This document shows, piece after piece, positions 45,884 through 48,193 of a DNA stretch of 64,000 nt. Within the stretch, counting starts at the first letter, position 1; the number at the start of each line of letters is the position of its first letter. A model generated the notes under the pieces. That model was not told where the DNA came from. It saw only the letters and a program-made list of their open reading frames with translations, and did no database searches. Origin of the DNA: Verrucomicrobiales bacterium (GTDB taxonomy: Bacteria; Verrucomicrobiota; Verrucomicrobiia; Verrucomicrobiales; SLCJ01); contig JAGXGH010000121.1 of assembly GCA_024636835.1 (NCBI GenBank), forward strand, positions 1-64,000, written 5' to 3'. The position numbers were made by a program, and so were the translations under genes.

Positions 45884-46438
45884 CTATTTCTCAGTGCTTG
45901 CTTTACGGGCGTTGATGAGGCCGATGAACAGTCCGATTAACGCTCCTAGATAACTTCCGTTATGAATATAGGCGACACGGATGAAAGCGTATTTATCCTC
46001 GATCCTTAAGGGATCGACAGTAGCTGACCAGAACGAGTAGTCGGCGCTGGGTCCGCGAATTAGTCCATAGAAATATCCACAAACCATACCGAGTGATGCC
46101 AAGATGAGGGTCAAGGCGATCCCAACTCGAATTCGTCGTTTGGCGACTGCTGGTTGATGGCGGGGCAGGGCGACTCGAGAGAGGAACCATCCACCGAAGA
46201 GACCCACGACGCCTGCGGCAATCGCGCCAACAGTTGCAGCGAATACAACAGGAGCTTGGCCAATGTTTGCCCACCCGAATTGGTCGAATTTGAATTTTGT
46301 GAAATACTCAGGTCCAATCGCGAAGGTAAAAAGATCATGGACGACTCCGTAAACAGCGGCAACGAGAAAGCCTGTCAGCGCACTTTTCCACAGAGGCTGC
46401 CACTGGGATTTTGAAATTCGTGGATAGAGGATGTTCAT
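45884..46438 (-). CDS. Four-helix membrane protein of unknown function
   Basis: 184 residues from the ATG at 46436-46438; the frame runs further back into a repeat and is not used. Helices near residues 20-37, 66-89, 103-125 and 150-170 (AAVYGVVHDLFTFAIGPEYF; VGAIAAGVVGLFGGWFLSRV; VGIALTLILASLGMVCGYFYG; NGSYLGALIGLFIGLIN). YGxxHDxxTxxxxxEYFT is a pattern I have seen in Verrucomicrobia and Planctomycetes membrane proteins of unknown role. The next gene is divergent; a family D repeat fills the gap. Confidence 0.65.
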   Translation of the reverse strand: MNILYPRISKSQWQPLWKSALTGFLVAAVYGVVHDLFTFAIGPEYFTKFKFDQFGWANIGQAPVVFAATVGAIAAGVVGLFGGWFLSRVALPRHQPAVAKRRIRVGIALTLILASLGMVCGYFYGLIRGPSADYSFWSATVDPLRIEDKYAFIRVAYIHNGSYLGALIGLFIGLINARKASTEK

Positions 46439-46479
46439 CGAGCACTCGAATAAAACGGCTAGCGGATAAAAAACATGAT

Positions 46480-46556
46480 GTTCCGCCGCGCACAAGCAGA
46501 CCGCAAGCAAGCAATTTCCTGTCCGGTCGCGTCAGACCAATACCAGGATTTGGTAT
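46480..46556 (-). repeat. Repeat family D, copy 2
   Basis: On the minus strand: ATACCAAATCCTGGTATTGG, TCTGACGCGACC, variable middle, CTTGTGCGCGGCGGAA. Hairpin ATACCA/TGGTAT. It sits between divergent genes; a frame of the plus-strand gene runs into it, but a start inside it is unlikely. Confidence 0.75.
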
Positions 46557-46665: not shown

Positions 46666-47349
46666 ATGTTGTTCATCTGTGTGGTTGCGATTTTGGTATA
46701 TGCCGTGTTGACGGTTGGACTTGGCGGGTGGGCACGGCGTCTATTGTTGAGAGGCGAAGCCGAGCGTCCATCATCGGCTCCCGCCAGATTAGTGGCTTCA
46801 GGGATGTTGAAGGAGGCCGGAATGCCGAAAATTCAGGTGACCGAAGGGTGGTTCAAGGAATGGTCGACTTACGATGATGGGATAGGGAAAGTGATACTCG
46901 CACCGGAAATTTTCGAACAACGCACGCCGGAAGCTTGCGCGGTGGCGGCGATGCAGGCATCGAGAGCGGTCGTGGCGAGGGAGTCACCGGCAGCATGGCG
47001 GCGCCGAAGGATAGCCCTTCGATGGTCGTCCGCGCTGCCAGGCCTGGCGCTCTTCTTCGCGATCTTTCTTATGCTTCTGAAGCGGGTTAACCCTGCAGGT
47101 GCACTGATACTATTCGCCCTTGCCTGTGTGGTGAGCTTGGTGATGTATTTGATGACGCTGCGAATTGATCTGCGGGCAGCGATGATCGCCAAGAAAACAC
47201 TCCAAGGTCAGAATGTATTGGTTAGTGAGACAGATATGGCAAGAGCGATCAAGTTACTCGACGTTGCGCCGATGATGGATTTACGCGGGCCAATAGCGTC
47301 GATGAAGTGGGTGTTATGGCACATGGCTCCGTTTGCGCGTCGGTCTTGA
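46666..47349 (+). CDS. YugP-like metallopeptidase homologue without zinc motif
   Basis: 227 residues from the ATG at 46666, where the first helix begins (MLFICVVAILVYAVLTV). The order follows YugP (DUF1751-like, zinc-dependent membrane protease): ARLVASGMLKEAGMPKIQV, TYDDGIGKVILAPEIFEQ, CAVAAMQASRAVVARESP, two helices, then LRIDLRAAMIAKKTL and ARAIKLLDVAP. In YugP the middle stretch holds HExGHA; here the aligned residues are MQASRAV. The two zinc histidines and the glutamate are gone while the rest is recognisable. The protein is therefore probably inactive as a protease. Confidence 0.65.
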   Translation: MLFICVVAILVYAVLTVGLGGWARRLLLRGEAERPSSAPARLVASGMLKEAGMPKIQVTEGWFKEWSTYDDGIGKVILAPEIFEQRTPEACAVAAMQASRAVVARESPAAWRRRRIALRWSSALPGLALFFAIFLMLLKRVNPAGALILFALACVVSLVMYLMTLRIDLRAAMIAKKTLQGQNVLVSETDMARAIKLLDVAPMMDLRGPIASMKWVLWHMAPFARRS

Positions 47350-47449
47350 TTGGGGCGTAGTCTGATATTGGCTGCGGCTTCCCAGCACCAACTACAGATA
47401 TCGTGCACCCCTCATGAATTTTGTCGCGTTATTGCGCGTCGGACGTAAA

Positions 47450-48193
47450 ATGAGAATCATGAATTTTAAAACCAATCTCTGTACAAGTGTTTTTGCCTTA
47501 GTGATGGCCTTACCAGTGATTGCCGAGCAAGAGCCGACAGCGGAACAAATGCTGCGATGGGTGCGGATCAATGGGGCGGTACAAGAGGGGAGTATGGATG
47601 GGAATCTTCGCCGCTCCGATGGTAAGAAAGTACCGTTCAACCTAACGATGGAGAAAGGCGGAATGTCATTCGCGTTCGAGAATCCGAAGCAAGTGGTGGC
47701 ACTCGATTTGAGTGGTGAGGATTTGGCGATCAGTGAGAGCATCAATGGTGGCGAGATGAAGTCTGTGCCAGCCGAGCGTTTTGGCGAGTCGATTCGTGGA
47801 ACAGATGCAAACTTTGAAGATATTGCGTTGCGCTTTCTTTTCTGGCCGAACCCGACATTTGAAAAGGAATCGGATGGAAGTAAAAAAGTCGAGCGTGTGG
47901 CAACGCGCGATAGCTACAAAATCCGTGCAAACAATCCGAATAAGTCAGGGCCATACGCGGTGGTTTTTGCCTGGGTGGATAAGGAGAGCGGCGCGCTGAT
48001 GAGGGTGCAGGGCTACGATTGGAACGGTAAGTGCATCAAGCAGTTTGAAGTGATCAGTGCGCGCAAAGTCGACAAAGCCTGGATGCTGAAACAACTCCGT
48101 GTCGATCAGGTTGACCCCGAGTCGCAAAAAGTTCTGTCACGGACGTGGCTAAATTTCGAGGAGCCTAAAACACCGACACGGAAGGTGTTTTAG
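47450..48193 (+). CDS. LolA-like outer membrane lipoprotein-sorting family protein
   Basis: About 247 residues from the ATG at 47450 (an alternative is 47459). Signal peptide (TSVFALVMALPVIAEQE). A single beta-sheet domain like that of LolA/LolB and their relatives (TAEQMLRWVRINGAV, VPFNLTMEKGGMSFAF, VKSVPAERFGESI-like segment, YAVVFAWVDKESGALMRVQGYDWNGKCIK). These proteins bind lipid tails in a hollow half-barrel. Members with this length are usually annotated outer membrane lipoprotein-sorting protein; this one may carry another lipid. Confidence 0.75.
   Translation: MRIMNFKTNLCTSVFALVMALPVIAEQEPTAEQMLRWVRINGAVQEGSMDGNLRRSDGKKVPFNLTMEKGGMSFAFENPKQVVALDLSGEDLAISESINGGEMKSVPAERFGESIRGTDANFEDIALRFLFWPNPTFEKESDGSKKVERVATRDSYKIRANNPNKSGPYAVVFAWVDKESGALMRVQGYDWNGKCIKQFEVISARKVDKAWMLKQLRVDQVDPESQKVLSRTWLNFEEPKTPTRKVF

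Follow-up and report, generated by a model that had tools for sequence, protein, structure and literature searches.

The window analysed here, a stretch of 64,000 nts from a Verrucomicrobiales bacterium, contains on its forward strand an open reading frame of 227 codons and a stop, which begins with an ATG at 46666 and ends at 47349. The frame stays open upstream of this ATG, giving 312 aa from a TTG at 46411, yet similarity to the copy of a genus mate starts at the 46666 ATG. Residues 37-203 of the encoded protein match the Pfam family PF04298 (YugP, Zn_peptidase_2) with an E-value of 3.7e-11. At 43.4 bits against a curated cut-off of 27, the likeness to YugP is well above chance and places the protein in the PF04298 homology family; an NCBIfam search with the same protein gave no match over its cut-offs. 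The GC content of the gene by codon position (0.58, 0.48, 0.61) is close to that of the intact YugP gene of the same genome (0.56, 0.43, 0.65). The Bacillus subtilis YugP is described in PMC13393411 as a putative metalloprotease located in the inner membrane of the spore, where the deletion of yugP together with htrC delays germination; the family is termed uncharacterised in PMC3650047. The features of the locus are as follows:

46666-47349, forward strand: inactive YugP (PF04298) homologue, 227 aa plus stop (Pfam, alignment, trees)
46669-46749, forward strand: predicted transmembrane helix 1, residues 2-28 (AlphaFold2 model, hydropathy)
46834-46899, forward strand: three-strand part of the former zincin core, residues 57-78 (alignment, AlphaFold2 model)
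46951-46971, forward strand: lost active site MQASRAV, residues 96-102 (alignment to intact YugP)
46987-47076, forward strand: conserved PAAWRRRRIALRWSSALPG block and second membrane helix, residues 108-137 (AlphaFold2 model, genus-mate identity)
47092-47211, forward strand: third membrane segment continuing into a long helix, residues 143-182 (AlphaFold2 model, hydropathy)
47167-47169, forward strand: third zinc-ligand position, Glu to Asp168 (alignment to intact YugP)
47248-47310, forward strand: conserved C-terminal segment with LDVAPxxDLRGPxAS, residues 195-215 (alignment with the genus mate)
47414-48193, forward strand: downstream neighbour, LolA_like (PF17131), with no shown membership in the system (Pfam)

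On the minus strand beside the gene, 45884-46510 encodes a membrane-like protein, which had no Pfam match at E 0.01.

The lost zinc site and the predicted fold

The genome from which the window derives also encodes an intact YugP (L001) reading HECGHA. In the alignment of the two proteins, AAHECGHAVQ of the intact enzyme faces AAMQASRAVV of the window protein, so that the first His is replaced by M96, the Glu by Q97 and the second His by R100. The original prediction had placed MQASRAV at the HExGHA position, and this alignment confirms it. The third ligand, whose place we take from the conserved VEFDA motif and the general logic of zincins, lies in VEFDAS of the intact enzyme, which aligns to IDLRAA, with the Glu changed to D168. 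Hence every catalytic and zinc position is changed in the window protein: a functional YugP has both His and the Glu of HExxH, where this protein reads MQASR, and a Glu as third ligand, where it has Asp168. The motif EGWFKxWSxYDD within residues 57-78, conserved with the genus mate, occupies the place of the canonical DHYDP. The window protein is thus very probably a pseudoprotease, that is, a protease homologue which has lost its catalytic residues.

An AlphaFold2 model of the window protein reached a pLDDT of 83.3 and a pTM of 0.78, and that of a relative reading QAGK at the former site 91.6 and 0.87, respectively. Both models have the same order of elements: an anchor helix, a helix, three strands, the active-site helix, a two-helix membrane hairpin and C-terminal helices. 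The window protein is therefore predicted to retain the YugP order of membrane anchor, strands, active helix and two-helix hairpin and, in addition to scoring over the Pfam cut-off, it can be aligned with canonical YugP over nearly its full length. No solved YugP structure was found, either by a sequence search of solved structures, which returned nothing meaningful, or by Foldseek, for which the best E-value with the window model was 0.4. Structural alignment by VIA-align returned mostly ABC transporters; the zincins ERAP1 (Z 5.6, 112 aligned residues, rmsd 3.1), IrrE (Z 5.4), PprI and abylysin (Z 4.5) were among the rows at Z no higher than unrelated helical proteins. Together with the Pfam match and with the tree and profile comparison described below, the predicted structure upholds the claim of a YugP-type membrane protein devoid of HExxH.

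Relatives, number of losses and selection

The same loss is present in the orthologue of the only same-genus genome returned (L004, 48% identical), which reads LQAARAE in place of the H-E-H site. Identity between the two proteins is clustered, with 17/20 residues at 107-126, 13/22 at 57-78 and 13/21 at 195-215 but 0/11 at 127-137. The only other genome returned from the same family (f1), G002, has a copy reading HAAVQAL. A profile search of genome contigs with the window and genus-mate pair as query found no relative. Among 57 genomes of the order, other second copies have either kept or lost HEAGHA. A profile search across the order, which covered 386 genomes and was followed by a motif read-out of the homologues, showed that in one genus of another family (g4, family f3) nearly all second copies read [L/Q]QAGKA, the first His being replaced by Leu or Gln, the Glu by Gln and the second His by Lys, while the third-ligand Glu is kept. 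Aligned QAGK proteins of this genus (22) are 54-71% identical to the first of them, with H82, E106 and H108 invariant, but HEAGH is still present in L060 and L096, both of them second copies from g4. A profile search with the QAGK alignment retrieved 25 loci, all from Verrucomicrobiales, Akkermansiaceae, Verrucomicrobiaceae or broader Verrucomicrobiota/Verrucomicrobiia MAGs. Two further second copies stand out: one (L105, G046) reads HVAGHA, with both His kept and the catalytic Glu replaced, and might still bind zinc; the other, inactive (L088:3287-3982, G038), reads YLAGKAL at the old site followed about nine residues on by HEPGH, either by chance or as a shifted motif.

The inactive form is widespread in a second family, f2, where a copy was found at E<=1e-25 in 173/260 genomes (hand count) with a profile, A7, that was built partly from f2 members and therefore flatters the E-values of those genomes. 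The first 15 f2 genomes examined, selected for having two matches in the order-wide search, all carry a second, lower-scoring copy without HExxH. The motif is absent from 31/31 f2 copies read for it and from 2/2 read later; an HExxH reported for L163 falls in noise upstream of the gene, inside the open frame. In profile comparisons, the f2 copies matched canonical YugP with a probability of 99.05 (E 1.7e-17) and the window pair with one of 98.3; the window pair itself matched canonical YugP at 99.1. Most of the strand region of the zincin core is gone from 6 of the 13 f2 copies aligned. These copies retain the anchor, the hairpin in the membrane and the C-terminal segment, which suggests that the hairpin and the C-terminal segment, rather than the cleft, carry the function. 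As a control, outside the order, HExxH was kept in all 18 loci read (17 genomes), chosen among the better A7 scores in a 387-genome phylum sample, and no inactive copy occurs among them.

It is very improbable that these proteins are still metalloenzymes with a moved or unusual site, in which other residues bind the metal. Relocated catalytic residues are known in some pseudoenzymes (PMC10211241); the QAGK genus retains the third-ligand Glu along with the invariant H82, E106 and H108, and one inactive copy (L006) contains HEPGH shortly past the lost site. However, H82 is common and EGH is present in active second copies as well, hence these residues are not replacement ligands. Furthermore, the window protein has a single His (residue 219) and no HExxH, and the strand region is absent altogether from several f2 copies. 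An acidic residue persists at the third-ligand place in all rows read with Lys or Arg at the second His (the window protein and L004 of f1, L006 and g4): the window lineage combines Arg with Asp, and a second, apparently separate lineage Lys with Glu. This pairing suggests a salt bridge at the former zinc place, which, as a sequence-based hypothesis, would hold the fold together without metal.

The site appears to have been lost repeatedly. In a tree of 74 rows, from which near-identical copies had been removed, the lost rows need four changes, of which at least three are forced by starred branches. The g4 copies group in a single clade (26 lost rows, support 100/99) nested among active second copies, and this genus apparently lost the site separately, to QAGK. 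The inactive copies of f1 and f2 also form one clade (94/85, node not starred), in a tree of 38 hand-picked rows in which two f2 rows (L170 and L182) were cut at a late Met. Two rows, L027 and L006, are long branches; a further tree of 59 rows was made by dropping 15, L027 among them. A single loss common to f1, L006 and g4 was rejected by the AU test (p 0.0017), while a single loss common to f1 and g4 with L006 left free was not (p 0.093). Two or more losses are thus preferred over one and are the better reading, short of proof.

Selection was estimated as dN/dS by NG86. Among f2 inactive pairs more than 80% identical, not all independent, as L138/L151 and L155/L169 are the same gene fetched twice, the ratio is mostly 0.05-0.10, near the 0.04-0.07 or so of canonical YugP in genus g3 of f2. 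The outlier, L133/L130 (0.36), shows almost no change between its copies; less similar pairs reach 0.21, and L170/L182 0.39. Ten QAGK pairs gave 0.04-0.14. Inactive copies are therefore under purifying selection in these relatives, f2 and the QAGK genus. For the window gene, the sole pair, with the genus mate, gave dN 0.49 and dS 1.63, near saturation, and a ratio of 0.30 that is only suggestive of the same.

These values bear on the possibility, also raised in the original prediction, that the gene is decaying; its frame would then still be open by chance. Consistent with decay, the window protein lies on a long branch with 48% identity to its genus mate, nearly half of the aligned f2 copies have shed most of the strand region, and in 56/76 g3 genomes the only match scores as canonical YugP does, the inactive copy having apparently been lost there. 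Nevertheless, frames are open in nearly all orthologues, no internal stop was reported in the window copy, and conserved blocks such as residues 107-126 are shared with the genus mate. With the low dN/dS of close f2 pairs, the genus-mate orthologue bearing the same loss and the inactive copies of 173 f2 genomes, they contradict decay and leave it highly unlikely.

Retention without the active enzyme and candidate partners

Canonical YugP (PF04298, E<1e-35) was detected in 184/260 f2 genomes. When cross-tabulated by hand at author-chosen thresholds (E<=1e-25 for the inactive and E<1e-35 for the canonical form), both forms are present in 113 of these genomes, the inactive form only in 60, the canonical form only in 71 and neither in 16. 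All 12 genomes of g39 belong to the inactive-only set, which also counts 19 genomes with a completeness of 95% or more. In g4, similarly, an inactive second copy occurs with no canonical YugP found in 8/33 genomes, one of them 53% complete. The inactive protein hence does not seem to need YugP. In G131:C31 (locus L140), a single contig carries the canonical and the inactive gene, separated by about 8 kb.

Paralogous pseudoenzymes are often regulators of their active relative, and the window genome, like the 113 f2 genomes above, contains both forms. The inactive protein could accordingly serve solely to regulate the active YugP of its own cell or to act as a decoy for it, pairing with the protease or binding its substrates and thereby tuning cleavage. 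However, a dedicated regulator is expected to vanish with its enzyme, and the inactive-only genomes of f2 and g4 make this role distinctly unlikely. The regulatory role first proposed for the gene can thus be kept in a general sense, but not as that of a dedicated regulator of YugP.

Gene order was also considered as a source of partners. The genus mate does not share the neighbours that the gene has in the window, hence gene order suggests no partner for it. The LolA_like gene was dropped, as no relative shares this neighbour by ORF clustering, and the sodium/calcium exchanger was dropped because exchangers are on other contigs in the window genome. Near many g4 second YugP genes (L061-L085), ORFs resemble, by eye, a phosphate ABC transporter and an NYN-domain gene. 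In 9/31 f2 loci and in G002 of f1, the inactive gene immediately follows the helicase gene hrpB on the same strand (HrpB_C by Pfam), which agrees in part with the clade that joins f1 and f2, the loci concerned being L087, L142, L144, L146, L167, L173, L174, L175, L179 and L182, with tatA further on in some of them. A sodium/calcium exchanger-like gene is directly downstream of the second YugP in L086 and L088, from two families, Pfam-checked for L086 only.

Such linkages would fit a membrane protein of unrelated biochemistry, such as a subunit of a transporter or a partner of HrpB with a link to RNA, for which protease ancestry is mere history. The position behind hrpB, the exchanger adjoining the second YugP in G001 and, by ORF resemblance, in G038, and the reduced core of some f2 copies all speak in its favour. 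Against it, neither the window nor 22/31 f2 loci showed hrpB immediately upstream, the exchanger does not adjoin the gene in the window genome, and shared gene order may reflect inheritance only. This reading is considered unlikely.

Taken as a whole, the best explanation, and a reasonably probable one, is that of an old pseudoprotease which now acts as a membrane adaptor or scaffold; considered on its own, the adaptor or scaffold role of the window protein is a tentative assignment. A second-copy YugP would have lost its zinc site long ago and been retained for a non-catalytic membrane job. The one-helix anchor and the two-helix hairpin would keep the protein in the membrane, where a partner may be bound by the conserved loop that precedes helix 2, together with the C-terminal segment. 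Candidates are a membrane protein that is its client, a different protease of the membrane (FtsH or HtpX, for instance) or a transporter, which the protein may deliver or shield in the manner of inactive rhomboids.

The window protein resembles the rhomboid-type pseudoproteases and adaptors (iRhom, Derlin/Dfm1, and YqgP as an FtsH adaptor) in having a membrane protease fold, and such folds bind or pass on clients (PMC6451368, PMC8641752, PMC7231995). Rhomboids have a serine-protease fold, whereas the window protein is of zincin descent. The bacterial CspC and MamO, which derive from serine proteases and differ in architecture, are alike in a general way, as inactivated proteases that were kept. 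Their retention for signalling or metal binding is reported in PMC6636752 and PMC4794232. From YugP itself the window protein differs by the disappearance of HExxH and the third-ligand Glu, and by the persistence of the inactive form without the active enzyme in many relatives. Pseudoproteases are a known kind, and such a form is apparently undescribed in the YugP family: no inactive YugP family was found in the literature, subscription papers and preprints being outside the scope of the search.

On a broader scale, it is conceivable, though far from assured, that the YugP fold became a stand-alone membrane binding protein at least twice in one order, with a Lys/Arg-Asp/Glu salt bridge at the zinc place, and that in one family it later gave up part of the zincin core and persisted beyond the parent enzyme, having a separate function in the membrane. 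Rhomboids are the main source of the membrane pseudoproteases known, and the present one comes from a zinc membrane protease. The inactive YugP family is conserved across many bacteria, was inactivated apparently more than once and outlasts the active enzyme, hence it offers natural material on the roles that a protease fold can have other than cutting. Since there are genomes with both forms, one or neither, such a role is testable by deletion.
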